From Sabellastarte sp. h YS-2021 (lineage: Eukaryota; Annelida; Polychaeta; Sabellida; Sabellidae), in assembly GCA_964017235.1 (NCBI GenBank), contig OZ024930.1:31376614-31440613 (forward strand): 64,000 bases of DNA, given 5' to 3'. Below are positions 27,667-52,000 of this stretch, one piece after another; position 1 is the stretch's first letter; every line of letters begins with the position of its first letter. Below the pieces are notes generated by a model that saw only the letters and a program-made list of their open reading frames with translations, was not told the origin of the DNA and searched no databases. The position numbers and the translations under genes are program-made.

Positions 27667-30335
27667 CCCTTCCGCTACCATGTCTGTCGACTAGCAGGCG
27701 ACACTCAAGTGTATTCCCAGGGACCATGTTTGTTGAGAGGGTTCCACGATTTTATAATAAAAATATAAGTTCCTTCAGTACATTTTTATTAAATTTTATT
27801 CAGTTCAGGGGACTTCTATCGACACATTGTGACATCATTTATTGGTTGTGACGTCATAAAAACGTCAATCTAACGCAAAATAGACGTTTATATGCCTCTC
27901 TAAAACGTGGTCTGTTTATGGTATGTGTGCTGTTTGATTTACATACTACTTTTTGGTGAAATATTTTAGTAGCATATCATAAGAAAGCAGTGATGAGTAC
28001 ATGCCAAGGGAACCTCAAAGAAATACTGTGGTTATGGGGAGGGGTAGAGGGGATGGCAGGGGTGGTCGCAGGGGTCAAGGAAGGGCTGGTTGTAGGGGTC
28101 AAGGCAGGGCTGGTCGAGGAAGGGATGGTGGTCGAGGAAGGGTTGGTGGTCGAGGAGGGGCTCGTGGCAGGGGTCAAGTGAGGGAGATAGATATAGAAGA
28201 AGCTTCTGACTCTATGGAGGAGGGTATATCTGAAGGGGAAATGGCTGATACAGCTTCTGAAAGTGGGGCAGGTGATGAGGTAGATGGTAAACCAGTTGTT
28301 GGTGATCTTGAGGTCAATGTTCAAGATATAGATTGGGTAGAACCAAATTTGGCCATGCCTGATATTCCAAGGTTTCGTGCATGACCAGGTTTCCTAGTTG
28401 ATACTACTAATTTGCATTCCCCACATGAATATTTCAGACATTTTCTAAATATTGATATCATGAATCTGATAGCTGAAGAGACCAATAGATATGCTACAGA
28501 CTCCCTTGAGGGCCACCCAAACTTGCCTCGTTTTTCAGATTTGAGGAGATGGTCTCCTATTGACGTGACTGAGTGAGAATTATTTTTGGGACTGTGCCTC
28601 CTTGTTGGCATTGTCAAAAAACCTAGATACAGTGATTACTGGGCCACAGAACCTTTGATGTATACCCCTATTTTTTTCTACTATTTTCAAGAGAGCCAGG
28701 TTTCAACTGATCATGCGCTTTCTTCATTTCAACAATAACAACAATGAGCCTAATCATAATGACCCAGACCGTGACCGCATGTTCAAAATACGACCAATTA
28801 TAGATCATTTCAATGATACTTTCCAGGCTGCCATACAACCAGAGCAAGAAATTGCACTAGATGAATCTTTACTTTTATTCAAAGGTAAACTTCACTTCAA
28901 GTAATATATTCCAGCAAAAAGGTCACACTTTGGCATAAAGATATTTCAAGGTTGTGAATCTAAGACAGGTTATTCATACAAATTCCTTGTATATCAAGGC
29001 AAGATGGCACCAACTTTTGGCATAGAAAATCAGATGGCTAATGTTAGAGGGGCCACCAATACAGATAAGCTGACTGTAGCTATGATTGAACCATTGCTAG
29101 ATCAAGGGTACCATTTGTATGTGGACAATTGGTATACAAGTCTAAGACTTTTCAAATATTTAGATGAACATGAGACCCCAGCTTCTGGAACATTGAGAAA
29201 AAATAGGGTGCCACGAGGTTTGAGGGATGTAAACATGCAAGTAGATGAAACCAAAGCTCTCAGATCTGATAATATTCTAGTTCTGAAATACAGGGCCAAG
29301 CTCAAAAAATATGTGAATGTCATGACCACCATCCACAACGAAGCTACTTCTGCAGTAAATGTTCGTGGAAGGCATCAGCTGCGTGTGAACAAGCCTTTAG
29401 CAATACAGGAATACAACAAATATATGGGAGGGGTGGATCGCATGGATCAGGTGAGTTTTTCTAATTTTTTTTACTATTTTATGACAATTTATTTTCATGT
29501 GCACATTCCATGCATTTAGTTGTAATCGATTAGCCATGTATTTTTTAAAACATTACCTAAAAATTGTGTAAACTATCACACAACTAAGAAGTGGCATATA
29601 CTTACCTGAACTTACCTGACATATACTTACCTGAACTTACCTGACCTTGCCCTGCTTGTTACAATTACTTCATGACTTCTTGTAGGTTCTGTACTACTAT
29701 GACTGCACTCGGAAATCTTTGAAATGGTACAGGAAACTTGCATTTCACCTGATGCAGATTGCCTTGTGGAATTCTTGGATTTTGTTTGTGAAAGAGACAG
29801 GCTCGAACATGACTTTCTTGAAGTTCCAGTTACAAGTAAGTAATCTAAATAACATGTAACATAGTTTTGCATGTGTGAAAATGTGATTTTCAAACAGGAT
29901 CCTGTTCCAGCTCAAGCCAATGAAGATTTCATTCGTTTGACAGCTCGCCATTTCGCTAGTTTGCTTCCTCCTACTGGAGCCAGGCAGCATCCTTATAGGA
30001 GATGTAAGGTGTGTCGTGTGAGGAGAAACATCAGGAGGGAAACCAAGTACTTTTGTGCAAAGTGCCCCAGTCAACCAGCCTTGTATGTTGATGGCTGCTT
30101 TGAGATGTACCACACACTTCCTGATATTTGAACTATTAACTTTGCATACCACTGGACTTATTTGGCCATCTTTGTGCTTGTTTTTACCATGTTACTTCAA
30201 ATAAATGAAAATAAAAGACTGTTCATATGTTTAGCTTTATTTTTAGTGCACTTTTATGTAATTTACAAGTGATGACATCATATGACGTCCAATGCCACAG
30301 TCCCACAGAATAATGCTCCTTCAGTAGCGAAAGGG
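27667..30335 (+). mobile_element. piggyBac DNA transposon (decayed), TTAA target sites
   Basis: The ends are CCCTTCCGCTACC at 27667 and, inverted, CCCTTTCGCTACTG at 30335, each bordered by TTAA (27663-27666 and 30336-30339). This is the signature of piggyBac integration. The element is 2,669 bp and contains one transposase gene on the plus strand. The terminal repeats differ at a few bases and the transposase is disrupted, so the copy is inactive without help. Confidence 0.92.
28001..30131 (+). pseudogene. piggyBac transposase pseudogene with two introns
   Basis: A Gly/Arg-rich N-terminus (RGRGDGRGGRRGQG, 28040-28180) and an acidic stretch precede the DDE core: IALDESLLLFKGK (first Asp, about 28859), HLYVDNWYTS (second, about 29123) and MGGVDRMDQ (third, about 29432). 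The C-terminus is a Cys-rich CxxC domain (CKVCRVRR, FCAKC, 30006-30066). Two introns with GT-AG ends fit the family alignment: 29451-29685 and 29836-29897. In-frame stops lie at 28382 (TGA), 28574 (TGA) and 28902 (TAA), and the frame shifts once between about 28640 and 28712. Each stop is one C-to-T change away from Arg or Gln codons. Confidence 0.88.
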
Positions 30336-31056: not shown

Positions 31057-34000
31057 GTAAAAGCTTGATGAGTCGTGGCCTACTTACAGTTCAGACATTC
31101 CCGAAAACAGTGCCTTTCGGCTACTGCTCTCTGCCGAAACTTGATTCAACTTGCATACAACAACCTCATTTTTGCTCATTTCGTGGATATATTTTGATTA
31201 AGATGTGCATTGATTCATGCACTGGTTTTGAAATATTTCACTGCCTTCTACCAATTAGATAGACGTGGTTACCTCGGCTCTACTTACTTGCGTGTAGAGC
31301 CGTGGCACTCCCCCACATAAAACTAGAGATTTGCAAAAAATCATTTTCTTTTGAATAAAACTTGATAAAATGACTCCAAATGGTTTGATATATTTAAAAG
31401 CAGTTGATATTAAGCCAAGGGCACAACAAATACAATATGTATATAACATATATGCTATTTTATACAGTTTTTATAACAAAAGAGCATTTTCAAATTTTTG
31501 GAGAAATGGTCCAAAAAGTATTGATAATGAGGGAATATAATTTATTTTTTTGTCAAATATGTTTGCATGTTGACTGACTGTTGAGGTCAATGTAACAAAA
31601 TAGTTGTGGGAACAGTTGTGTGTATAATTTTTATGGTATTTGTGTTTTATGCAAATCTCTAGTTTTATGTGGGGTAGTGCCACGGCTCTACACGCAAGTA
31701 AGTAGAGTCGAGGTAACCACGTCTACCAATTAGACTGAGTTTTCTGTCCCAAAATATGCCTTTTTAAAGCTGATGGATGGCATTTTGGGACAGAGTTCCT
31801 CGCCACACAAAAAACTTCAATATCTGAAAGTTACAGTCGCTTTAAACTTTAAAATATCCACTTAAATGTATTAACACAGTAATATAGACACTTTTTCTGC
31901 ACTTTCTGTTTGTATAAACAATGATGAAATTTTGCAAGTGAAATAAATTTTGTTAAATATATCCATTAACTATGCAAAAAGTTTATTTCTTTTAATGCGG
32001 GGAACATCCTTGATACTCAAGTTGGTAGCCTAGTACATGTTTAATGTCAGGATGTGTGCCATTTGTTGCCCTTCAGGACGTTTATGTTTTTTGCATACTT
32101 ATGCCATCTGTCTGTCGCCAATACATCCATCTTTTAAATATTGGCTGAGAGACAGATTAATCGGTCTATCTACCAGTTATCATAAGGATAGCTCGATCAC
32201 TCCGCTTCCAAGACATTTCATGGGTCAGGCTATTTACCGCAAGGAGGCAAATACCACAAGGAGACCGCAAGAAGATTGATATACCACAAGGAGATTTATA
32301 ATGCTAGAATAGAAGGTTTTTAGTGTATTTTTGTCCTGAAGTTATCTATTTATAGCCAGTATTTATTTGATTTATCCAACTTTTAAGGCCTGAGTTCATT
32401 TACCTGACTCCTAACGGAGGAAGATTGACCTTAATCTTCGAAAGAGAATAATACAGATAAAAATTTAGATTTAATTTAACAACTTATTAATGACACCATA
32501 TTAATATTAATTTGACATTTATTAAATCTAATATAAAATATCCACAATACAAGTACAATAATACACCACACACACCTAAATTAAATTGTATTACTGTAGT
32601 AAAAATACAAAATATTAATATTCCTAGAGGCAAAGTTTTAAACTAAAATTACTACTGTTAGGGAAATATTTTCAAATATGTTATTCATCTAGTTTTTGAT
32701 GAGCTATCAGATAGTAAAGCTGCAAACCTGTTGCACACTGGACAGCTGAGTAATAGCTACTTTGAAATTGTGACAGTTGAGTAAATCCATTGTAACTCAA
32801 AAACTACTGCAGTTACAGGATTTTCCTAAAATAATTTGTTCAGCTACTTTTTCCTTAACTATAAGATGGCATATCGTTTGGGGTTCCATTGCATGTCATA
32901 AGTGAGCAAAAGCTATTTTCTTATTTGTAGCAAAATTATGATGGAAATAAATGTCAAATACCTTCACAAGTACCAAAGTTAGGCAAATCTTTTCATTTGT
33001 TATTCATCTAGTTTTTCAAAAGCTTACTTTCCTGTGTAGGTCAATAGCTAAGTGAGTAGATAGCTGAGCAAGAGCTACTAAAATGAGTAAATGTCTTGTA
33101 TCTCTAAAAGTATTACAGGTAGGCAATTTCTTCTAAATAAGTCATTCACCCACTTTTGTGTGATCTACCACATAGTGAAGTTGCAGAACTGTAGGTCTTT
33201 GGATAGCTGAGTAATAGCTACTAAAATGAGTAAATGTCTTTTATCTCTAAAAGTATTACAGGTAGGCAATTTCTTCTAAATAAGTCATTCACCTACTTTT
33301 GGGTGATCTACCACATAGTGAAGTTGCAGAACTGTAGCTCTTTTGATAACTGAGTAATAGCTACTAAAATGAGTAAATGTCTTGTATCTCTAAAAGTTTT
33401 ACAGGTAGGCAATTTCTTCTAAATAAGTCATTCACCTACTTTTGGGTGATCTACCACATAGTGAAGTTGCAGAACTGTAGCTCTTTGGATAACTGAGTAA
33501 TAGCTACTAAAATGAGCAAATGTCTTTTATCTCTGAAAGTATTACAGGTAGGCAATTTCTTCTAGATAAGTCATTCACATACTTTTGGGTGATCTACCAC
33601 ATAGTGAAGTTGCAGAACCGTAGCTCTTTGGATAGCTGAGTAATAGCTACTAAAATGAGTAAATGTCTTTTATCTCTAAAAGTATTACAGGTAGGCAATT
33701 TCTTCTAAATAAGTCATTCACATACTTTTGGGTGATCTACCACATAGTGAAGTTGCAGAACTGTAGCTCTTTGGATAGCTGAGTAATAGCTACTAAAATG
33801 AGTAAATGTCTTTTATCTCTAAATGTATTACAGGTAGGCAATTTCTTCTAAATAAGTCATTCCCCTTATTTTTGGGTGATCTACCACATAGTGAAGTTGC
33901 AGAACTGTAGCTCTTTGGATAGCTGAGTAATAGCTACTAAAATGAGTAAATGTCTTTTCTCTCTAAAAGTATTACAGGTAGGCAATTTCTTCTAAATAAG

Positions 34001-37000
34001 TCATTCATCTACTTTTGGGTGATCTACCACGGTGAAGTTGCAGAACTGTAGCTCTTTGGATAGCTGAGTAATAGTATTGTAAAATACCAGACTCACCAGT
34101 AGTTATCTGTAGTGATGCTGTAGGATTTCTTTTAGGTGTTGTTCCTTTGGATATGCACAGATAACTGACTAGTCTTTAGGTTCATTTCCTGTTACAAGCA
34201 CTTCCAGTGGGGAGATGCTAAAACTCACTCGGCAGGCGTACGGCTTTCCGGACGAAACTCCCGGGCGGTAGCCACAACATTCCCCCCTGTTTTGTTGAGA
34301 ACAGGACCCTCAGATATCTGTGGTTGGCCGTGATGGTAGTAGACAGACCAGGGTTTTGATCGTGGACACAACGGTTCTGAACTTGTAGAACAATGTTGGT
34401 AATCCCTCTGTTTTCTTTTGAGATTCCGCAACAGTTCTGAAACTGGTAGAACAATGTTGATAATCCCTCTGCTTTGAGAAATTTGAGCACGTGAACATTC
34501 TGATCATCTCTCCATTTTGAAAGATACGTAGCAGTAAAACGCTTGGAACAATGTTGATGATTCTTGCATAACAGTTCATGACATAGAACAATGTTAATAG
34601 GTTCTTTTAGAAACACACAACAGTTCACTTACAATGCAAAACAATGTTAACGTATCCAGGTGTACACTCTTATTTGAGACCGTACAGGTCCTTGGCGTTC
34701 CAGCTGGTCACCTGTAACACCTCTTTCACAGTTGTGTCTTTCAATTGCGCCACCTGGCGAGCCACTTCTTTTAAACCATAAGGAGAGTTGTAATTACACT
34801 TACTGTGGACAGGGGCTGTAATGTAAGGCGAGTCTGTTTCCAAGAGGATCTGGTCCAACTCCAGGCGCTGTACGACCTTCTCCAGTTCAGGGTGACGGTC
34901 CTGACGCAGCAGGAGGGCAGTGAACCCAAACATCATCCTCGGAAAACACGCAAGCCAATTACGGAGTTGAGTAATTTCCCCGTTGAAACATGATGGTGGA
35001 TCTTCATCACATCCCTGTCAAAGGTTGGCAACTCCTCACCAAAGATTTTTAGACAGGTTTCTGATGCTTCCATGCTCCCCTTCTTGTCCCGACAGTGGAT
35101 GACCAAGACCTTGCTGAACAATTCCTCCTTGACAAACAGCTGTAGGAATTTCCTGCACAGTGTAATTTGCTGTTTCTTGTAGGAACTGAAATGCGCGGAG
35201 TAGTCAAAGCCAAACTCACCAATACCAACACAACGTGGATCCTTGATGATGGCACTCCTCACATCAGTAAAATCCTGGGCAGAGGCGGTGTGAGCAAACT
35301 TTGGGTGAATTCCGTGGGAATGAAATATCCTGGAATCCCTCTTCCACATTTGACGAAGTTTCTTGCCAGGCAACTCATGACAGAAATTGGCGACAACGGC
35401 CTGTAAATACACTGGAGTCGCTGGCATTGGCCCCCTGTCAAGGATATCATCGATGTCCTGACATCTGCTAGCCCTTTGAAGTGCATGTGAGAGTCGATGA
35501 AACTGACTCTGTCTGAACTTTTGGCCTTCAAGAAAACTTCTTTCCTCTTCTTCCAGGTCGCATAGTCATATGGTACGCCGACATCCTGGATTGCCTCCTC
35601 CTTTGGTGGACTTCCTAGAATGGATGATCCGACGCTTCTGGCTTCCTCAACAGGTGAATCCAGTAGTGCAGCTTCCTCTGAGAGAGCAAGACTACTTGCT
35701 AACTTCCCAGATTCTGACTGACTACAGGGAACAGATGATGCAGCTTCCTCTGAGAGAGCAAGACTACTTGCTAACTTCCCAGATTCTGGCTGATTACATG
35801 ATTCCACCTCCATTTCCTCTTCCTGCTGTTTCACACTGCTATCCTTTGGCGATGAGACCTTTTCCTCAGCACTGACATCTGTAGGTTCTGGCAGTGTCAC
35901 CTTCTCCCCGACACAATTGATAACAGTTGAAAACACTCTCCAGTGAGTCAACACGGCGACACAATTGGGCGGATCGATGGATGGTACAGATGCCAAAGTT
36001 TCCCCGGACAACCACTGGGGATACTCCTTGATGATTTGGACATCCTCCTCACCTAGGGTAAACCTTGTGTCCACGGGATACCACTTCTTTTCAAGAACTG
36101 TGCTGAGCAATTCATCGTGGGTTGTTAATCCAAGGACCTTTTCTACAGCTGCCAAGGAATCACTGTAACTAGTGAAACGCTTGTCACGTGACATGCTTTT
36201 CCAAGTGGCAAAAGCTAAGGATAGATGCTTGCCCACTACATGCTTCTTAAGGCTGGGTATGGCCTGGCCGCAGTCTATCATGTAGCAAACTGGCCTCCTT
36301 GGTTTCTTCTTTATAACCACTACCTCCAAGGATTCAGATGATGGCCTTTTTAATGAGGTGTCATTATTGTTAGAGTCCTTTACCTTCACTGTCCTGGTCT
36401 TGGGCGGAGTTGGTTTAGAAACAACCGAAGACATAGTGGTCTTGGACGTGGTTGGCTTGCAGATAACCGAAGACACAGTAGTCTTGGACACAGTTGGTTG
36501 GGAGACAACCGAAGACACAGTAGCAATGGGGGTGTGGAAACTGACAGATGAAGATGTCCTAGTTGTTGGAGTGACCTCTGACTCTGAGCTCGAGGAAAAA
36601 CTCGGAAAACCTGATGCTTCTGCCAACATCTCTCTGACTCTCCTGCTACTTGTTTCCATAAGCGGACCTTGATTGTGGGATTTCATTTCCGATGCTGTAC
36701 GTTCAACAATATCGCAGATACGGTTGAAATCCACAAATTGGTAGAGCTCTTTCAACATGTTTGTAACTTGCTTATTCTGAGATCTGCGGGAAGAATATCT
36801 TCTTGGAGAATGTTCACGTGCTCGTGAGGTGTAGGTGCGAGTGCCATAGGCACTGGTATAACGAGACCTATCACGGTCTTCCCTGTAAGATCCTCTAGAA
36901 TGACGAGATCTTGAACGTGATCTATGACGAGATGCACGTGATCTATGTGATTCTGAGGGACGGGATCTTGACTGTGATCTTCGTTGATGCGATGCACGAT

Positions 37001-40000
37001 TTTGTCTGGACTCCTTAGCTGGAGAATGTGAATTTTTCTTTGATTTTTCCATAGCAACGCCTGTAGTAAGAAGAGTAGATAATCAATATTTGTGACTTCC
37101 CAACAGAAATACGAGACACTGATGTTAGGGACTTGACTAGTCATGCTAACACCAAACCCTCATGCACTTGACTAGGAAATTTCAACGAATCATCTTATCT
37201 AAGTCTTAACTACTTAAATATAGTCCTGCAAATGACGCGGTCTCCTCCTTTCACGACCACTTCTGCTGGGCTGTAATTCAGGTAGCTGATCTCCAGAATC
37301 AAGATGTTGTTCAATCTCGAGCGTAGATTTTGGCGAAACTGGGTCATCTGGAAACAATTGTACTTTCTCCTGACAGTATCCTGGCAGACTGACATCTGTA
37401 TCATCTGGCTCATTTTCGAATAGCCAATCCAAACAGAAATGATCTTCATTTTCAGGATCCTCTTGGTCAAGGTCGTTCAAAATTTTACTTCGTTTTCTGC
37501 GAAGCCACAAAGGAATGGCACGATCTTCACAAGGCTTTAACCTATCATGATGTAGGACAAATGACTTCCTCTTGTCAGCTACCTCAAAAATAATAGGTGA
37601 AATAACCTTGGAGATGACATATGGGCCTTTCCATACCGGCTGTAACTTAGGACTTATGCCAATTTTTCTAGCTGAATCAAGGACATACACGAGATCACCA
37701 ATCTCATACGTAGTCACTTTCAACTTGAGGTCATAGTCCCTTTTCTGTCTTTCTTGACTGGACTGCAAGGACTCCCTTGCAAGGGTATGGACTTGACGAA
37801 GAATTTGCTGTAGCTTTGTGACATATTCCGCAGAAGTTGTTTCTTCTTGACCGATAGAGCCGAACATCAAATCAACTGGCAACATGACTTCTCTGCCAAG
37901 CATCATCATGTTCGGGGTAAATCCAGTGTGTCTATTGACGGTTGAGCGAATAGCACCTGCTAGTTGCTGTAGGTGTTCATCCCAGGACTTCTGATTGCTT
38001 TTCAGGAAACACCGAATTAACTGCAGTAGGGTGCGGTTATAACGCTCTACCTGACCATTGGAGCATGGTCTATAGGGTGTAGTCCTTGTTTTGGTAATCT
38101 GGAGCAAATCACAGACAGTTGCGAACAGTTTACCATCAAAATTCTTTCCTTGGTCAGTGTGAATCTCCACTGGGCATCCTAAACGTGAGATGAATCCATC
38201 AACCATACATCGGGCGGTTTCTTCTGCATTCTGATGTGGTAATGGAAAACATTCAAGCCACTTAGTGAACTGATCCACAATCATTAGGACATATTGGTTA
38301 CCTTTGGTACTTGGAGTAAATGGACCTAGAATATCCACATACACACGTTCTAATGGAGATCCTATGTGGTACTGTCCAAGTCCTGCTTTGGCTTTGGTTT
38401 TGGCTTTTTTACTCCTGTTGCACACCTGACAGGATTTCACGAAAAGTTCAACATCCCTTGACATCTTATACCAAATAAAAGACTTTCGGATACGCAAGAG
38501 CGTCTTTGCGATACCCATGTGTCCAGTTAATGGTATATCATGATTAAGGGATAAAACTTCTTGTTTTAGGCATTCTGGAACCACTAGTAGTTGTTTCTCT
38601 CCAATAACATCCTTCCAGGAGTACCACAATAAGTTGTTTTGGTAACTTAAACGACTTCCATTGAGGTAGAAATACTTAACTGCTGGGCTGCATAAGGACA
38701 ACTCCCTTTGACTAGGGGTTATGTCAGTTTGTAGCCAAACAATTAGTTTTTTCAAACAAGGATCATTCTGCTGAAGTTTTGACAACTCTTCTTCTGTATA
38801 AGAGAGAATCCACTGGACATCTGGCGAGACAGAAGCTGTTCTAACGGCTAGAGGAACGACATCATCGACATCAGATTCAAACCTAGACCACTGCTGATGG
38901 GCCCTGGTACAGAATTTACAACCTTGACAAGGTAAATCTGCCAGGTCAACACCAGCTTGGTAACAGTTGCAGAAACTTGTTTCATCTGGGATTCTGGACA
39001 ATCCATCAGCGTTTCCATGTCTGTTTCCAGGTCGATGTTGGACGATCATGTCGAATTGACTCAGTTCTTCTAACCATCTGGCTAGTTGACCCTCTATGTA
39101 CTTGAAACGAAGAAGCCAAGTTAGGCTATTGTGGTCTGTCCTCAGGTAGAATTTTCGGCCTAAAAGATAGTGACGGAACTGTCTTGTGAATCTGATTACA
39201 GCTAGGAGCTCTCTTCTGGTCACACAATACTTGCGTTGTTCTGGGGTCAGAACTTAACTTCCGTAGCTAATCACTTTTTCATCACCATCTTGCAGTTGTG
39301 ATAGCACAGCACCTATTGCTGTTCCGGAAGCATCCGTATCCAGAATGAAAACGTCTGTTGCATTCGGATAAGCCAAAATGGGCGCATTGACCAACTTCTC
39401 CTTGACGGCGTCAAATGCTTCTTGGTGATTTTCCTGCCATTCAAAAGTTGCTTTACTTCCCGTCAGTTTGTAAAGTATGGAAGTAAGACCTGCGTAATCC
39501 TGGATATGATCACGATGGTAATTCACAAATCCTAGGAATTTCTCTACATCTTTCACAGACTGTGGAATTGGCCATTTCTTTACTTTGGTAATGTTGTCTG
39601 GATTCACAGCAACACCTTCGAAACTAACCACATGTCCCAAAAATGTAGTTTCAGTATGGTACAGGCTACACTTTTTGGGCTTAAGTTTCAGATTGTGCTG
39701 ACGAAACCTTTGAAATGTCAACTCAAGGTTAGCAACATGATCTGTGAAGTCTTTGCCTAAGACAATCACATCGTCAATGTATGCCAATGTTTTGGTCCAT
39801 GTTAACCCTCTTAGGACAAATTGAATCACTCTTTGGAATGTGGCGGGAGCATTACAAAGCCCAAACGCCATCCGTTTGTGTTCAAATAGTCCATACTTGG
39901 TAATAAAGGCTGTTTTGTGCTGATCTTTTTCATTAATTTCTATTTGCCAATAACCACTCGCCATATCAAGTGTGGAAAAGTATCTATTACCAGACAGCTG

Positions 40001-43000
40001 ATCCAGACATTGTGATATGGATGGTAATGGAAATAAGTCTTTGACTGTTTTGGCATTCAAAGAACGGTAATCCACACAGTATCGGACAGAGCCATCTCTC
40101 TTCCTCACAAGAACTGGTGCAGAGGCCCAGTCTGAGGAAGACTCTGAGATCACCCCGATATCCAACATCTGCTTCAGGTTCTCCTCTTCTTCACCTTCAA
40201 AACCCATAGGTGTACGCCGCATAGGATGTTTGACTGGACGTTCTGTACCAGTGTCTATGGTGTGTTTAATTTCCTTGAAACATCCTATATCATGACTCCC
40301 CTTGGAAAATATATCCTGATACTTCAGTAGTAAAGATCTCAAGATGGTTGCTTCCTCTTCATTCAAGAACTTCTTGGAACGCTGGAACAATCCTTCAAGA
40401 TGATCTGGAAGACTAGTATGAAGTTCAAGACTGGTAGAAGGTTTCTCAAGATCGCTTGAATGTTTTTCAAGACTGCTAGTGTTGATCTTTTTGGAATTCT
40501 CAGTCAAAACAACGTCACATTCCATTGCATATCCTAACACATGACCAACATGAATTAGAATTGGAACGTCTGTGTCATTGACTAATTGAATTGGGACCAT
40601 TTCCGCTGCCTGAACAATAGTGTTAGGTAGCAAAACACCTTTGTTTTTACCGGATGGTGAAATAACTATTTCACCGGACAAAGTTTTTGCTAACCGAGCA
40701 CTAGTTGGGCAATAACTGGGACACAAGAGTATTGATTCCCCTCGCTAGTTTTGAATTGATTCAACCTCAGTGAATACCTATTCAACATGAGAGTACCTTT
40801 ATCCAAGTTCAAAACAGCTTTGAAATGACAAAGAAAATCTAAACCAATAATTAAAGGTTCAGCTATATTAGCGACATAGAATTTCCATGTGAATGATTGC
40901 GACTCACTGAAGGAGACTGTTACTCCCTCGAACAGTTTTGCATCAATTTTCACATCTTGAATAATTCCTTCCAATTTAAGCATTCCCTTTAAATCAGGTT
41001 TGTTTTCAATCTGTTCATACAGTTTACTACTCATCAAGGAAATCTGAGCGTCGGTATCTAGTAGTGCTTTGGTTTTAACACCTTGAACAGTGCAATCTAC
41101 TACAGTGCTAAGGTTATCCTTGTTACTTTCGTGTTTTTCTACACCAAACTCTCTTACATGTCTTGTGATTCACCCAATTATTCATGTTGAGGGTCGGGGC
41201 AACGGGTGAATTACCCCTCCCTGTTAGTTTAAAGACTTTACAGAGTCAGAAAAGGTTACGTTGGACTTCTCACCCATGGAGCTAGGTCGCATGGTGGAGT
41301 CAGAACTACCTTTAAAACCCTGTGTAGTCCTAGGTGGTGGTGGTGGACTATGGTAGCGTTGGTTATCCCTTCTTGGGCTGGTCCTCCAGTTTGAATCATC
41401 ACTCCGCTGTGGACTTCTCCTGTAGTCTCTGTTTTGTGATGGATGGTACTGTCCAGAACGGGGACTGCCATAGATATTCCTCTGATATCCTTGACTGGAT
41501 GAAGGAAACCTTTCAGGGGTACCCGGTGGTGTGTACCTATCACGTCTAGGACCGTTATGCTGATAACCAGGTAAGTTCCATGTTGGGTCATAACCCTGAT
41601 GATCTCTCCAGTTGGGTTGATCGCTCCTGGTTGATGACCATTGTTTTCTGTCGTAACCATCATATCGCCTCCTGGGACAATTTTGTGCAAAATGTCCTGG
41701 TTCACCACAGTTATAGCATCTCAGTACATCCTGTCTGTTTTTATTGTCTTTTAACACTTTGTGTAGACCCGAGATGACTTTGTGAAACTTCTTGTGGTGA
41801 CGACCATCTCTTCTAGATGTATGGCCCCGGGCTTGTAATGTCTTAGCCACAGTTTCCTCTGATGTGGTAGAGGTATCAGAATCAGTTGAGGGACTTGACG
41901 AGTCAGACTCAACATATTTGACACTCCTCGCAGAAGCCTTCTTCCCAAGGATAGCTTTGCGTAGTTGCATAGCATCCTGAACAAATTTATAAGCATCTTC
42001 AAGGGTGGTGGGATGTTTACCAGCAGCTGCAAGCACTGCTGCTTTGTCACGACAGCCCTTCATGAAAGCATCCACGAAAAATGGACTGCATGCCTCTTGC
42101 TTCTGCTCATCTGGGAATAGGGAGACTATCATTCCTTGCATTCTGGCCAAGTACTTTTCAAGATTTTCATCCTCACGCTGTTCAGTTTGTAAAAGTTCCC
42201 ATCTCAAGGCGGCAGGGGATTCTGTCTTCCCAAAGTGATCCTGGAATCTCTTCTTCAGCCAATCAAAGTCCGATTCTTTACGGTTTGGCAGGATTCCATA
42301 ATACTCTGCTGCTCCTTTCTTCAGGGACATGGCAAAGTTATGGATCTTCTCAGACTCGGTCCAGGCTAAGGTCTTAGCCACAAGCTCAAACTGAGAAATG
42401 TATCCATTCCAATGTTCACCTTCAAAGGACAGCTTTGGTACGTGAATCTTGCTCTTCGTCTTGTCTTTATGGGTCACGGTTTTCTTCTGAACTTCATCTT
42501 CAGAGCTGTCAGATGAGACATGGACATTGTCATTCACCTGACTGACTACACTGACACGTGGTGTCTTGTTGTTGTAAACCCCGTTTGGGCTTTTTTCACA
42601 AATAGCAGCTGATACACGCTGAATACACTCATCCTGATCTTCAATCCTTGGTGTTGAACATCTACTAGTTGTCCTAAGATAGCTAGGTACAGGAGTATAC
42701 AACGACTGAGACATCCTGACCTGCTTCTGAGGAACCTTCGCAATAGTTTGTTCTTCTGAAGACCCTGGGTAATTAAACTCTGAAACTGGCCTCAAGTCCA
42801 ATCCTGTCCACTGAAGACCTGGTAAATTGGACGGAAGCTCATATTCCAAATTAAATGTATCTCTCATGGTTCTGAGCTGGCGGTTCACTTTCTCCAATGT
42901 AGGCTTACGCTTGGCTTCAAATATCTTGCTTTGGACATTGACATTTCGCTCGAAAGCTTTTTCAATGTCATCAAGACAATTCTCATCGGCCACACCTTCC

Positions 43001-46000
43001 AGTTGTTGCTTTTGCTGGACTAAAATCTGTTCATGCTTCTGTAATGCAGCTTCGTTCTCGGTCACAAGCTTGGATAACTCTGTAAAGGAATTTTCCAAGT
43101 CCTTCTGTAAAGCTTGAAAAGCTAGATCCTGCTCCACACCAGTTCGATGTTTACTGATCGAAGGATTGTGGTCACAGGGAGCATGCTTAAGGTTCTGCAC
43201 TTCCTCTTTGACAACCTGCACCTGTTGAGCTAGACCATCTAGATCTTGATGCAGCAAAGAGACTTCTTGTTGACGTTGGTTTTCAGCAATTTCAAGTTGT
43301 TGAAGAGAAGCTATCGCTTCCTCTTGGGATCTCTGAGTTTCTTTGACCGACTCCAGTTCCCGGTCCAACATCACTTGATGTTGTGTCACCCTGGACTTCA
43401 AGGAAGAAAACTCAGTTTTCTGCTGGTCGTACTCTTCAACTTGTCGATCCAAGCGAGAATCAAGTCTTGAAAACCTAGACTTTGTTTCTTGTATCTTGGA
43501 CTGTAACTGCTGACTAAGGTTCGAGACATCCCTATAGCAGTTGAACATCACTTCCTGCTGAGAAGACGTCAAACCGGACACATCACTCTTCAACATTGCG
43601 GTGTCACTTTCCACTCTGTCAAGTTTTTGATGTTTCTCCTCAACATCAGTCACTCTCTGATCCAAGCCATCTACTCTGGACTTAAGCTCAAGTTGAGCCG
43701 TATGGGTTGAATGAACTGAATGGTTCAATTCTTCCACTGTGCGGAACAACTTTGTCACTTTGTTGCTGGTATCAACCTGGGTAGATTCCAATTTCTTCAC
43801 AGACTTCTCTGTTTTTGATGTGTTTCCCTTGATTGCGATCAGAACTGACCAAATATCATCAAGTCCTGGCTTTCCAGTAAGTATTGGAATAGAGTCCGAA
43901 GTCTCGGGTTCAAGTCCTGCAGTTCCCTGACTGGGAAAAACCTGATAGGATGAGCCCGACAACTCTACTTTTGGCGACTGCAACTTCTGCTGATCAGTTG
44001 ATGTTCCCGACAAATGCAAAGATTCTTTGTCAGGGAAAGCATACTGGTCATCCGAATCTTCATTGTCCATCTCCTCCACCTCACGGGAATCTTCCGCGCC
44101 AACCTGAACTACAAGGTGTTCCTGACTGGAGCAAACCTTGTTATCAGACGACACATTTTTGTCACTGAATATGATGAAACCTGAGTGTTGGAGTTTCTTG
44201 ATCACTGAATTGCTGACAACTTTTGACTTCTGAAGGTCATGCAAGGTCAGCGTACCACCATTTTCTTCCCTCAGGTTCAATATCCTGTCTGCCTTTGCTT
44301 CACCAATGCTTTTTATTGACAATAAATCAGCCTTGGTTACATCTACAATGTGGACTGGTTTTTTTCCACCGGTAGCCATTTCCAGTTTTTTTTTAAAAGT
44401 GAATTTACTCAATTCAACCAACAAAAAACCTGACAAACAACAAACTGACAAATTCAATAACCAACTAGCAAAACAATGCCAAGTCAATTAATGAAACTGT
44501 ACACAAATAACACACAAATCCGATAATCTAACTTGCAAGGCGGAGCAAAGTTAAACCAAATTAAATCAAACCCAATCTGCACGACAATGCAAAGATATAG
44601 GTCAAAGTACAATAAATAACTTGCAAGACAAAGCAAAAGTTATTTAGCAAAAATCACAATAGTTACAAATGAAATGAAGAAAATGTGAAATACTGGTCAA
44701 AAATTTACACTTTTACAGAAAATGCTGTAGCTTAATTTTTTGTCCCAAAAATAAATAATATACAATTTACACTACAAGTAATTCAGATTGGATTTAATTT
44801 TGTTATTGAAACTCAATAAATTTTAAACAAGGTTAAATAAATTTTTACGCAATAAAAGATTAGATTATTGTAATGCAATAAAAAAGGTTTTTTTTTTTTT
44901 TGCCTATTGAAAAATCTTCGCAATAAAAATTTGACTACAAATTTTAACTACAACATATAATCATGCAACTAAATGAAAAATAATGGGTCTTAACTACGGT
45001 TAGTAAGGGCAATTTCTTTCAAAGTTCAATATAAAAATAATTTAAAATAATATTCAGAATACTATTCAAAATTTAATTCAAATCACTAGAAAATTACTAC
45101 AAAATACTACCAACAGAAAATTAAATTTACTTGCAAATGTGCTACTAATTTACTATAAAGACAAATATTTTACTACAATTACTGTCAAAAATACTATATT
45201 TACTTCAAATTTCCACAAAAGAACCATTATAAATACACTAGAAAAAATGTACTACATACACAGTACCAATAACACTACTTTGCTTTGGAAAAATACAGTT
45301 GTGTGGAACAATACAGGTATTTTATTTACCAAATAACGGTGCCGACGACCGACCAATTATTTGCAAACAAAAAGTACCCAATCGATCTGAGTTGTAACAA
45401 ACAACTGACAACCAACTCGAGCGATGAACAAATATGACAAGAAAAGCAATAAATAGCAGTAGAAAAAACGAAATTTATACTGCCACACACACACAAATAT
45501 GAGATTTACAAAATCAATGTACCGAAACCGTACACTGTTATAAAGCAAATATATTTGTGACAATAATTTAAAACAAAATACCTACAAATATGAAGTAAAA
45601 TAGTGTATATTTTATAGAAGTTTACCGGAAATCACGCTAAGATCGCCGATTAACACACTACAAAAACGAAAATTCACGCTAAGAATTGCCGATAATTCAC
45701 GCTAAGAATTGCCGATAGGTGAATTTCAGAACACTAAATTACAGCATATTATAGACAAACAAAGTAAAAAATAACAATGAATCGAAGAAATACCTGTTTT
45801 ATTCACCACAAAACACCAAGCAAATTCAAACAAAGTTCAAATTCACGTGGTGAACGAAAATTAAAGATTCATCACAAATAAACAGAAATACCTACAAAAC
45901 CAATACCAGAATGTAGTGGGTGATAAAATCACACACTTCTGGTACCAGTATTGTAAAATACCAGACTCACCAGTAGTTATCTGTAGTGATGCTGTAGGAT

Positions 46001-49000
46001 TTCTTTTAGGTGTTGTTCCTTTGGATATGCACAGATAACTGACTAGTCTTTAGGTTCATTTCCTGTTACAAGCACTTCCAGTGGGGAGATGCTAAAACTC
46101 ACTCGGCAGGCGTACGGCTTTCCGGACGAAACTCCCGGGCGGTAGCCACAACAATAGCTACTAAAATGAGTAAATGTCTTTTATCTCTAAAAGTATTACA
46201 GGTAGGCACTTTCTTCTAAATAAGTCATTCAGCTACTTTTGGGTGATCTACCACATAGTGAAGTTGCAGAACTGTAGCTCTTTGGATGGCAGAGTAATAG
46301 CCACTAAAATAAGTAAATATCTTTTATCTCTAAAAGTGTTACAGATAGGCTATTTCTTCTAAATATGTCCTTACCTACTTTAGGTTGATCTACTGCATAA
46401 TAAAGTTGCAGAACTGTAGCTCTTTGGATGGCAGAGTAATAGCTACTAAAGTGAGTAAATGCCTTTGGTCTTTAAAAGTATTGCAATCAAACATTAAACT
46501 TGTTGTCACTTCTACATGTGCCTCCATCTCACAAGAAAATTTATATTCCACTCTCTTTAGTACATCTAATGTATACGGCGGGAGATAAATGCATGCGTCA
46601 ATTCTTGTATCTACTTTAAAACTACTCTTCTTACAAACTATAGCATTTATTATGTCCACCCCCCTGGGGGGTGGATATATTATTTTTGCTTTTTTCGCCG
46701 TCCGATGTCCGATGTCCGATGTCCGGCGTCCGGCGTCCGGCGTCCGATGTCCGGCGTCACGCATGGTTTCCGCTCATTTAAAGGAAAAGTATTAGAGCTA
46801 TTGTCACCAAATTTGGTATGCAGGCTTATTGGGTCAGTAGCTTGCTTGGGATTGCTTTTGGCTGTTGTACCTCTTTTGCTTACTGAGTAATACTTAAGTA
46901 CAGCTATTTTCAGTACCCATTGGTTTCCGTGCATTTAAGCCAAAATAATTAAAGATATTTTACTACAATTTTGAATACAAGATTGTTATGTCCATAGCTC
47001 GCTTGGTATTGCATTTGGGACTGATAGCTTTGTCAGTACATGAGTAATAGCCATTTAGGTACTTCATTGTGTATTTTCAGTACTACTTTTGAGTAATTTG
47101 CTTCTATCTCCTTAACCGTGCGAGATAGAGCGATTTCGGCAAAATTTTCGACCCGCAGGGTATCTGAGGAGTGTACTCTTTGCAATTTTCAAAAAATTTT
47201 CCCCTCCCCAAAAATGGCGGCCATTTTGAATTTTCGAATTTTTGCCAAAAATGGCAAAACACAAATTTGCTTCTATCTCCTTAACCGTGCGAGATAGAGC
47301 GATTTCGTCGAAATTTTCGACCCACAGGGTATCTAAGGAATGTAATATTTGCAATTTTCAAAAAATTTTCCCCTCCCCAAAAATGGCGGCCATTTTGAAT
47401 TTTCGAATTTTTGCCAAAAATGGCAAAACACAAATTTGCTTCTATCTCCTTAACCGTGCGAGATAGAGCGATTTCGGCAAAATTTTCGACACACAGGGTA
47501 TCTAACCAATGCAATCTTTGCAATTTTCAAAATATTTTCCCCTCCCCAAAAATGGCGGCCATTTTGAATTTTTGAATTTTTGCCAAAAATGGCAAAACAC
47601 AAATTTGCTTCTATCTCCTTAACCGTGCGAGATAGAGCGATTTCGTCGAAATTTTCGACCCACAGGGTATCTAAGGAATGTAATATTTGCAATTTTCAAA
47701 AAATTTTCCCCTCCCCAAAAATGGCGGCCATTTTGAATTTTCGAATTTTTGCCAAAAATGGCAAAACACAAATTTGCTTCTATCTCCTTAACCGTGCGAG
47801 ATAGAGCGATTTCGTCGAAATTTTCGACCCACAGGGTATCTAAGGAATGCAATCTTTGCAATTTTCCAAAAATTTTCCCCTCCCCAAAAATGGCGGCCAT
47901 TTTGAATTTTCGAATTTTTGCCAAAAATGGCAAAACACAAATTTGCTTCTATCTCCTTAACCGTGCGAGATAGAGCGATTTCGTCGAAATTTTCGACCCA
48001 CAGGGTATCTAAGGAATGTAATATTTGCAATTTTCAAAAAAATTTCCCCTCCCCAAAAATGGCGGCCATTTTGAATTTTCGAATTTTTGCCAAAAATGGC
48101 AAAACACAAATTTCCTTCTATCTCCTTAACCGTGCGAGATAGAGCGATTTCGGCAAAATTTTCGACCCACAGGGGATCTAAGGAATGCAATCTTTGCAAT
48201 TTTCCAAAAATTTTCCCCTCCCCAAAAATGGCGGCCATTTTGAATTTTCGAATTTTTGCCAAAAATGGCAAAACACTAATTTGCTTCTATCTCCTTAACC
48301 GTGCGAGATAGAGCGATTTCGGCAAAATTTTCGACGCACAGGGTATCTAAGCAATGCAATCTTTGCAATTTTCAAAATATTTTCCCCTCCCCAAAAATGG
48401 CGGCCATTTTGAATTTTCGAATTTTTGCCAAAAATGGCAAAACACAAATTTGCTTCTATCTCCTTAACCGTGCGAGATAGAGCGATTTCGTCGAAATTTT
48501 CGACCCACAGGGTATCTAAGGAATGTAATCTTTGCAATTTTCAAAAAATTTTCCCCTCCCCAAAAATGGCGGCCATTTTGAATTTTCGAATTTTTGCCAA
48601 AAATTGCAAAACACAAATTTGCTTCTATCTCCTTAACCGTGCGAGATAGAGCGATTTCGTCGAAATTTTCGACCCACAGGGTATCTAAGGAATGCAATCT
48701 TTGCAATTTTCCAAAAATTTTCCCCTCCCCAAAAATGGCGGCCATTTTGAATTTTCGAATTTTTGCCAAAAATGGCAAAACACAAATTTGCTTCTATCTC
48801 CTTAACCGTGCGAGATAGAGCGATTTCGTCGAAATTTTCGACCCACAGGGTATCTAAGGAATGCAATCTTTGCAATTTTCCAAAAATTTTCCCCTCCCCA
48901 AAAATGGCGGCCATTTTGAATTTTCGAATTTTTGCCAAAAATGGCAAAACACAAATTTGCTTCTATCTCCTTAACCGTGCCAGATAGAGTGATTTCGTCA

Positions 49001-52000
49001 AAATTTTCGACCCACAGGGTATCTGAGCATTGTACTCTTGGTAATTTCTAAAAAATTTTCCCCTCCCCTAAAATGGCGGCCATTTTGAATTTTCAAATTT
49101 TTGCCAAAAATGGCAAAACACAAATTTGCTTCTATCTCCTTAACCATGCGAGATAGAGCGATTTCGTCGAAATTTTCAACCCACAGGGTATCTAAGGAAT
49201 GTAATCTTTGCAATTTTCAAAAAATTTTCCCCTCCCCAAAAATGGCAGCCATTTTGAATTTTCGAATTTTTGCCCAAAATGGAAAAACACAAACTGGCCT
49301 TAACCGTGCAAAATAGAGTTATTTTGTTGAAATTTTCGACCCATAGGGTATCTAAGAAATGTACTCTTGGCAATTTTCAAAAAAATTTCCTTTTCCCAAT
49401 AATGGCGGCCATTTTGAATTTTCAAATTTTTGCCAAAAATAGAAAAACAGGAATTGGCTTCTATCTTCTTAACCGTGCAAGATAGAGTGATTTCGTCAAA
49501 ATTTTCAACCCAACCAATGCAAAAAGGCATGAAGCTGAAATAAATTACATCTACACTATCAAATATTTAAGCATCATTGATATATTTTACAAATGAAACA
49601 GGGTCTTGTAAGACTACTGTACAATTTGGGCAAAAGGTTCATGGGTGGACATTACACATGATAATGTGTGTTCTTCTATGCTATCCTGTTTCTATTCGCA
49701 TCTACTATCAACAGGGCGGCCTATTTCTAGTTAAATTAACTTTACAAAATTTATGATAGTGGTCGGACCGGTTCTGAAAATAAAAACTGGTTTTTGGGAC
49801 TTTGAACCGAACAAAATCTGGGATTTCGAAAGTTCACAGAGATATGATAAAAAGTTTTACGCGAGCGTACATGAGCGATATTATCAAGAGGAAACATATA
49901 TTCGCGGGATATTTTGAAGTTTGTAAAGTTCATTTACCATGAATATAAAGTAAAAATGTAAGGTGTTTCCTTAAATGTATATGTTCTTTATTGTTTTGAT
50001 GAATTATTAATCAGTAGAAAGCCTAATGTAATGACGTTTTCAATTACCGATACTTAAATATTCTTTGCAGATTTTGTCATTTCTACCTAAACGAAACGAA
50101 AGGCGATATACCGGTTTACCATTCACACCACTAATTTATGACCATAGAAAACAAAATAAAGCTTACATTTTTCTTTCATGTTGATGCATAAACTTCCACA
50201 CTGTCTGCTTAACTTTAGCTGCTTCTCTCAGTGCTGCATGTTTTTCTTTTCAAAAACCTTTTTTCTACTTAATACTATAAAACATCTAACCTTTTGGGAC
50301 ACTTTGTTACCCCACAGCCCTTAAGGGCTGTCGGGGTATTGTTTTCACCCATGGTGTCCGGATGGGCGGGCGGGCATCCTGCGGGCGGGTGGGTGGGCGG
50401 GCGGCGGGAAAAAAGTTTGTCCGAGCTGTATCTCAGAAACTGTAAGGTGTAGGAAGTTGATACTTGGTAGGGACATTGGTTAGGGGTTGTAGGTGTGCAA
50501 CATCATGGTGTGACCTTGATTTGACCTTTGACCTTGCCGTAGTGACCTTGAGTTTGAAAATCTTGCAGGGCTATATCTCAGAAACCGTAAGGTGTAGGAA
50601 GTTGATACTTGGTAGGGATATTGGTTAGGTGGTGTAGGTGTGCAACGTCATGGTGTGACCTTGATTTGACCTTGCTGAAGTGACCTTGACCTATAAAATC
50701 TTGTCCGGGCTATATCTCGGAAACCGTAAGGTGTAGGAAGTTGATACTTGGTAGGGACATTGGTTAGGGGGTGTAGGTGTGCAGCACCATGGTCTGACCT
50801 TGATTTGACCTTTGACCTTGCCATAGTGACCTTGACCTATAAAATCTTGTCTGGTCTATATCTCGGAAACCGTAAGGTGTAGGAAGTTGATACTTGGTGG
50901 GGACATTGGTTATCGGCTATAGGTGTGTATTATCATGGTGTGACCTTAATTTGACCTTTGACCTTGCGTAGTGACCTTGACCTTTAAAATCTTGTTGCAC
51001 CTTTGGGTCTGTCTTTTGATGCAGATTAAGCACTGTTAATTCATATTAGAATTTATTAAGAATTTTACTTTCATAACTTTCCATTGTAAGAGATAGAATT
51101 TCACAGATTCACAGATTTTGCTCCAACACCGCACATAAGCATTCATTAAATGTATTACCACTTCTGTATACATGGTAATATTCAAAACATCTAAACCATA
51201 ATTCGGCCATGCAGATAAAGAGTGTTGTAATTTTAGTTTACTGATTAATGCTGTCATCTTGTTATTGAATTATCTTATTTTAATACTTCATCTTTACATG
51301 CATTATCTTTCTTTTAAACATTATTTTTCCATTTAAACATTGTTTGGAACTTTATATAACTGACAGTGCTCTGAAAGTATCCTGAACTTTGTACTGGTAC
51401 AGTACTTCTATATCTCATGGTGTTGAAAATGTTTCCCTAGGCTGTGGGGTATGGGCATCTCTGATGCTATTTTTTTTGTTAACAAAAACATTTTTCTAGT
51501 TTAAGTTTATTATAGCCAATTCACGACTGGACGGCCTCAAGGCAGTTTGCCAGTTCAGTGGTACTAGAGTCAAAGTTCCTAGAGTCAAGAGCCAAGTAAC
51601 TTTGTGTATCATCTGCATATACTTGATGGGTAACATTGAATTTAGATATGCCTGAACTGAGAGGGGTTGTATTATTGTATATAGGGTAAAGAGGAGTGGG
51701 TCCAGGACTGAGCCCTGAGAAATCCCATAAGGGAGTTGAAAAGCATCTGTAAGATATCCATCTGTTTTGATCCTCTGTTTCCTTGCGTTAAGGTATGACT
51801 GAGGAACCTGGGACAGGGAGATCGGCATCAGTAGACAATAATCCAGATCTTAGTTTCGCAATTTTATCTGCAAAATACGTTGGTGTTGGTTAAACTGTTG
51901 ATAGTAGTATGATCTGGGAGTGCAATTTTTGGTGAACTATAGAGGACTTTCTGTATGGAATTCCACAAAGCCTTGGGGTTATCCTCATTTTGCACATTCC

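Follow-up and report, generated by a model that had tools for sequence, protein, structure and literature searches.

The stretch of DNA analysed here, called the window, comprises 64,000 nucleotides of the annelid Sabellastarte sp. h YS-2021 (contig OZ024930.1, positions 31,376,614 to 31,440,613 of the forward strand). Its minus strand carries a complete Ty3/Gypsy element, in which a Pfam domain search recovered the order gag, protease (PR), reverse transcriptase (RT), RNase H (RH) and integrase (IN). Between pol and the 3' long terminal repeat (LTR) lies an open reading frame (ORF) for a TatD-type nuclease, with its ATG at 37052 and its stop ending at 34670. The observation of a TatD ORF in a Ty3/Gypsy element, first made in an initial annotation of the sequence, is confirmed: the coordinates, the minus strand and the position between pol and the 3' LTR were exact, and the TatD motifs it had pointed out are all present, at TatD ligand positions. 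On balance, we favour the reading that this element belongs to a Ty3/Gypsy lineage with a fixed accessory TatD-type nuclease gene in the env slot, having a nuclear role in hybrid processing. The ORF and its 3' neighbour are laid out as follows.

34670..37052, minus strand: TatD ORF, with RS-rich N-terminus, zinc-finger/helical region, acidic linker and TatD nuclease domain
35898..36287 (approximate), minus strand: zinc-finger-like/helical region of the TatD ORF (C-x4-C ... H-x4-H)
34670..35500 (approximate), minus strand: TatD nuclease domain, in broken frames, placed by Pfam and by the fold of the intact relative
34294..34669, minus strand: 3' untranslated region containing repeats of AACATTGTTCTA-like motifs, resembling the tail of P0011

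The window copy of the gene has two frame breaks: its frame is open from 37082 to 35259, and homology resumes in two other frames, 35565-34933 and 35017-34670, the intact relative being 821 amino acids (aa) long. A Pfam search of the frames as they stand, a check suggested by the initial annotation, matched TatD_DNase on the two downstream pieces (E 1.8e-16 and 3.5e-18; 60.7 and 66.4 bits, for a cut-off of 27), and the upstream piece searched alone gave no Pfam match. Chance motif matches were rejected on the basis of the Pfam scores, the fold and the homologues. P0011, a relative of type B (types are defined below), has a tail that resembles the 3' untranslated region of the window (tblastn E 6e-9), which indicates that the P0011 copy has the same neighbour. 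An RNA function is possible for the AACATTGTTCTA-like repeats of this region.

With the first frame of the window ORF as protein query, 14 matches were found, among them P0001 (821 aa, cluster of 33), which contains the whole TatD domain and scores 140 bits with the TatD profile, and P0008 (709 aa, cluster of 70). The TatD domain of P0001 gave 13 matches, P0016 and P0017, from clusters of 60 and 115, being among them, and a profile search gave 16; one relative, P0019, is a metagenome protein, and no relative was confirmed in five viral scans (IMG/VR) and two genome scans (GTDB contigs). The metal site consists of H-x-H, E, H, H and D, and 10 of the 11 aligned proteins keep every catalytic residue that they span; P0018 has K for E, and P0006 ends before the D. 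Intact copies very probably encode an active nuclease. Upstream, two cysteines and two histidines (C-x4-C and H-x4-H in P0001) are conserved wherever this part is covered, the cysteines of P0020 being more closely spaced.

The predicted model of P0001 has the TatD TIM-barrel fold, with TATDN3 as top Foldseek match. Its TatD part mostly reaches a pLDDT of about 60-96, and values fall below 50 at residues 1-89, 148-250 and 391-516. The initial annotation had likened the layout to that of animal TATDN2. This holds for the RS-rich N-terminus (P0001 has 18 RS/SR dipeptides within its first 110 aa) followed by TatD, and not for the additional conserved zinc-finger-like/helical region of the element proteins. 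The HxH group II motif of TATDN2 is present in the element proteins, and the P0001 model shows a disordered N-terminal region and a C-terminal TatD as in TATDN2; in sequence comparisons with the PDB, no chain named TATDN2 was among the matches listed. No strongly hydrophobic segment was found in six element TatD proteins, nor any env Pfam match in the window pieces or P0001, and an envelope protein was rejected for want of a membrane segment. Lack of a membrane segment, together with the basic, RS-rich N-terminus of most types and the zinc finger, argues for a protein acting inside the cell.

We searched the genome from which the window comes (1.786 Gb, 647 contigs) for further copies. P0001 gave at least 73 matches (best 55 of 1956 candidates scored); at least 12 of them cover residues 1-821 at 98-100% identity with no internal stop, and others cover nearly the whole protein at 54-57% identity. 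The integrase piece of the window gave at least 65 matches, itself included (best 65 of 7743 candidates). For 40 of these, with an integrase identity of 89-99%, the 5 kb downstream were fetched, and TatD followed pol in 39. Sixteen of these TatD genes match P0001 best (type A) and 23 match P0008 or P0006 best (type B); an LTR match comes after TatD in 36 of the 39, the exceptions being L033, L038 and L042. A more distant sample, made of 4 of the remaining 24 integrase matches (two at 69%, one at 70% and one at 72% identity), had TatD in the same place in all 4 cases: L049 is P0017-like (type C), L050 and L052 are P0016-like (type D), and L051 represents a further type E. At least five TatD types (A-E) are therefore found behind related pol genes. 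Conversely, integrase was present upstream of TatD in 8 of the first 8 TatD loci. Chance placement of TatD within 5 kb would have a probability of about 0.2% per copy, given some 650 candidates in 1.79 Gb. The initial annotation had proposed that absence of the region from other copies would point to a nested insertion or a captured host pseudogene. The sister copies do have TatD, and the region scores as a TatD domain; both explanations, as applied to a single copy, were rejected on this ground, and the placing of a TatD gene in the env position stands. TatD is almost certainly an integral, inherited gene of the element.

P0016 had at least 84 matches in the genome (best 65 of 1086 candidates scored), some being cross-matches to type A, and the TatD family as a whole was found at no fewer than 147 scored places, all above cut-off (best 147 of 649 candidates), among which there may be host TatD genes. 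In L033 and L036 the TatD match begins 2.8 and 2.1 kb into the stretch, so that extra DNA lies between pol and TatD. Two more TatD-like families were noticed. Family F is multi-copy (L067, L068, L069, L072 and L075; G000 C18, C3, C6 and C15) and 26-34% identical to the element types, and two of its members, L067 and L075, also have the conserved PPNSVGSLxHWRL stretch upstream. Family G (L070, L071 and L074) includes four TatD places with a regular 26-kb spacing (G000 C19:30984941, 31011159, 31037368 and 31063588).

For 14 copies the 5' ends were also fetched. LTR pairs of 99-100% identity were found in 12 of them (L056 and L059 being only partly covered) and not in L061 and L063. A 4-bp target duplication was present in 10 of the 10 readable copies, that of L064 being read after moving the alignment end back two bases. 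These elements evidently moved recently, with TatD on board.

The TatD modules themselves appear to have been exchanged. In two pairs of copies, each made of one type A and one type B element, the DNA is 97-100% identical across the final 300 bp of pol, and this similarity extends about 22 nt past its stop. Beyond this sharp breakpoint, just 3' of pol, the two types are 43-73% identical along the TatD ORF when compared in windows of 150 bp, whereas within type A or within type B the same stretch stays 98-100% identical. At the protein level, A and B TatD share 55% identity overall, rising to 70% for the TatD domain. The integrases of types C, D and E are 69-72% identical to that of the window, and their TatD domains are 47-49% identical to type A; by this comparison, the A and B TatD proteins are far too different for their pol. 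The simplest reading is that recombination replaced the 3' module between A and B. A mosaic was also seen within the ORF: between L017 and L034, pS is 0.71-0.78 in the N-terminal and zinc-finger parts and 0.26 in TatD. The swapping of nuclease modules behind almost identical pol ends clearly illustrates the modular evolution of retroelements in nature.

The ratio dN/dS was calculated by the Nei-Gojobori method with Jukes-Cantor correction. For the TatD domain, it was 0.135 between L017 and L034 (dS 0.32) and 0.136 between L029 and L034; between types A and B, pN was 0.19 and pS 0.81, the latter being saturated. By these sequence measures, the TatD nuclease domain is under purifying selection between variants.

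How the gene might be expressed was addressed by scoring splice sites, and two sites stood out.

45965..45973, minus strand: predicted splice donor CTG/GTGAGT in the 5' LTR (slash, splice point); the intron would begin at 45970
37060..37080, minus strand: predicted splice acceptor ...CTTCTTACTACAG/G, ending 8 nt upstream of the TatD ATG

Among the 815 GT sites of the window element, the donor shares the highest score with its duplicate in the 3' LTR. All 12 LTR pairs recovered, which belong to types A and B only, contain it. The acceptor at the TatD start ranks first among 918 AG sites. Eight stretches with differing sequences, covering types A, B, B' (L034), C, D and E, were also scored; in all eight, the best acceptor of the first 3 kb sits 0-8 nt before the TatD start. 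For types D and E this start was taken as the ATG directly after the acceptor, from which the frame is interrupted in the fetched copies; in other copies of type D, stop-free frames reach as much as 938 aa. These signals strongly suggest that TatD is made from a spliced subgenomic mRNA, which would join the LTR donor to the acceptor at the start codon.

The rest of the element is organised as follows.

45949..46153, minus strand: 5' LTR, 205 bp, TGTTGTGG...TTTTACAATA, 205/205 identity with the 3' LTR
34075..34279, minus strand: 3' LTR, 205 bp, from comparison of the LTR pair
46154..46157, plus strand: target-site duplication ATAG, one side; empty site matched 51/51 in two array units
34071..34074, plus strand: target-site duplication ATAG, other side
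45933..45947, minus strand: candidate primer-binding site (PBS) TGGTACCAGAAGTG..., starting one base past the 5' LTR
41224..44379, minus strand: gag ORF with zinc knuckle (zf-CCHC 3.5e-07)
40690..41169, minus strand: protease domain ORF, with weak aspartyl-protease matches under curated cut-offs
39254..40744, minus strand: reverse transcriptase and start of RNase H (RVT_1 2.7e-30)
37214..39253, minus strand: remainder of RNase H and integrase (H2C2 4.4e-18, rve 7.3e-14)
34280..34293, minus strand: polypurine tract (PPT) AAAACAGGGGGGAA, adjoining the 3' LTR

The two LTRs match each other at all 205 positions and have TG...TA termini. ATAG borders the element at either end; once joined, the flanking sequences match 51/51 in two neighbouring units of a 143-bp array (best of 20 shuffles: 30), which represent the empty site. 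This tandem array is split by the element (33059-34074 and 46153-46482), and close to it is another array, made of 14 copies of 169 bp (47095-49512). No tRNA gene was found in the window. The sequence TGGTACCAGAAGTG comes after the 5' LTR in all 12 copies with an LTR pair, and AAAACAGGGGGGAA or AAAACCGGGAGGAA precedes the 3' LTR in the fetched copies in which the LTR start is covered. In pol, which stops at 37214, the window copy has one premature in-frame stop, at 39254. The gag ORF has weak Retrotrans_gag, PNMA and N-terminal HHH matches, all under curated cut-offs; the resemblance of its N-terminus to a helix-hairpin-helix DNA-binding motif (HHH_3, E 3.3e-4) is unusual for a gag. With the PR-RT-RNaseH-integrase order (PR under curated cut-offs), paired LTRs, a short target duplication and a zinc-knuckle gag, the element has the features of Ty3/Gypsy. 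A Troyka element was rejected, since Troyka LTR retrotransposons have a 3-bp target duplication and CG...CG termini (PMC12440569). Elsewhere in the window there is a broken piggyBac-type transposase (28385-30131, plus strand), with DDE_Tnp_1_7 pieces and zf-Tnp_2.

Several points weigh against the favoured reading. One close copy, L039, has none, and looks rearranged (its integrase match stops at residue 603 and the LTR is inverted). Two others, L030 and L047, keep just 315 and 305 of the 821 TatD residues (about 38%), and many copies, including that of the window, carry a broken TatD, so that the protein may be dispensable or supplied in trans. Among eight intact type A copies (28 pairs), pN/pS is 0.84, and it is 0.54 between L050 and L052: little or no selection is visible in the sequences of young copies, as expected from drift after insertion. 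RS/SR pairs in the first 110 aa number 0 in P0019 and P0020, 1 in P0007 and 4 in P0016, some of these four predictions starting late or off-frame. Splice scoring used simple weights with textbook values, the window element being the one scanned in full, and the downstream context was examined for 44 of the 64 other integrase matches, within one genome.

If the favoured reading is correct, the spliced subgenomic mRNA, running from the LTR donor to the TatD start, would express a soluble, intracellular protein, probably located in the germ-cell nucleus. There, working as a nuclease of the two-metal kind, it would have as substrates RNA:DNA hybrids or structured nucleic acid arising from transcription, reverse transcription or integration of the element. 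TATDN2 of vertebrates is reported to be an RNA exo- and endonuclease that resolves R-loops and protects germ cells (PMC12709183), and TATDN1, TATDN3 and the TatD enzymes of E. coli are active both as 3'-5' exonucleases and as AP endonucleases (PMC10085689). We tentatively take an action in the nucleus, on hybrids or on nucleic acid of the element, as the most likely role, with somewhat less than an even chance of being right; defence antagonism and cDNA processing are close rivals. TatD could be mainly an anti-defence protein, degrading or blocking host RNA or DNA intermediates (small-RNA precursors, R-loops and foreign-cDNA sensing are the targets proposed), and module swaps would then reflect an arms race. 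This would agree with a gene that is separate and probably spliced, as those of accessory proteins are, with modules of 55% identity swapped behind near-identical pol ends, with the L017/L034 mosaic (pS 0.71 in the N part and 0.26 in TatD) and with a fast-changing N-terminus and linker. Its host target is only hypothetical, however, recombination of co-packaged RNAs requires no arms race, and the TatD domain is strongly conserved rather than fast-evolving; we consider this role rather unlikely. An action on the element's own cDNA before integration, by 3'-5' end trimming, primer RNA removal, or AP-site incision and repair, seems to us similarly improbable. The activities of TATDN1, TATDN3 and the E. 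coli enzymes (PMC10085689) and the complete metal site speak for it, but a protein made from a predicted separate mRNA, outside Gag-Pol, would need an extra signal to be packaged in particles. To our knowledge, moreover, most Gypsy elements manage without a TatD gene.

Less probable still is a nuclear RNA-handling or export factor that uses the fold for binding, like CERV of Cer1, which is made from a spliced mRNA and required for genomic-RNA export (PMC10309623). The RS-rich N-terminus (in type A and others), the zinc finger and the predicted spliced mRNA would suit such a factor, but 10 of 11 aligned proteins retain the catalytic ligands over the part that each covers, which argues for catalysis. 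Finally, the frame-broken window copy might suggest a host pseudogene or a nested insertion, captured by one copy and without significance. This is very hard to reconcile with TatD in 39/40 and 4/4 copies, with the five types, the intact ORFs and the purifying selection seen between variants, and with the tail of P0011, which shows the same flank in another copy; we give it hardly any credence.

In the literature searched, mostly outside subscription journals, no paper coupling TatD with a Gypsy or LTR element was found among the papers listed, in the text available and leaving aside a wheat genome paper that contains TatD, retrotransposon and Gypsy, and the literature check called for by the initial annotation thus returned no description of a TatD-bearing LTR element. 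If the favoured reading is true, a selected, catalytically complete nuclease replacing env would be a new kind of Ty3/Gypsy accessory function; it would make testable the idea that hybrid-resolving nucleases are a retroelement route through the germ line, and the family would be a source of natural TatD enzymes. This element type may plausibly be linked to the TATDN2-like genes that occur in many copies in marine invertebrates, and may account for inflated TATDN2 gene counts in invertebrate genomes. In the squid Hox cluster, 'TATDN2' is listed among the non-Hox genes together with the pogo-element-derived POGK (PMC6962438), which fits the reading of a retroelement TatD. We put forward, as a proposal a little short of evenly balanced, that a TATDN2-like nuclease has become a spliced, swappable accessory gene that would clear RNA:DNA hybrids or blunt germline defence, that many 'TATDN2-like genes' of marine invertebrates would be this same gene, and that modules would be exchanged through recombination immediately 3' of pol, in the way that retroviruses trade env.

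Compared with known systems, the element has the LTRs, PBS-like and PPT-like sites, gag, PR-RT-RH-IN and short target duplication of Ty3/Gypsy (Metaviridae), and differs by a conserved nuclease gene at the env position. In retroviruses and env-bearing Gypsy elements, env is made from a spliced mRNA. The extra gene after pol is common to these and to the lineage described here, with a spliced mRNA likewise predicted; unlike in errantivirus-like elements, its product is an enzyme rather than an envelope glycoprotein, with neither membrane segment nor env Pfam match. Animal TATDN2 is similar by layout, having a disordered N-terminal region, a C-terminal TatD domain (PMC12709183) and the HxH group, but the gene described here forms, in many copies, one uninterrupted reading frame of 821-1017 aa within an LTR element, and its protein has the additional zinc-finger-like/helical region. 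Cer1 of C. elegans is also an LTR retrotransposon with an extra nuclear protein from a spliced mRNA, splicing being predicted in our case, but CERV is not described as a nuclease in the available text (PMC10309623). Gypsy elements with additional enzymes are known, though rare: in Phalaenopsis, a Gypsy lineage has likewise fixed an extra enzyme gene, an AlkB-like RNA demethylase ORF thought to be related to host surveillance, although the enzyme is another one, the host is a plant and the elements are 25 kb long (PMC9289625).

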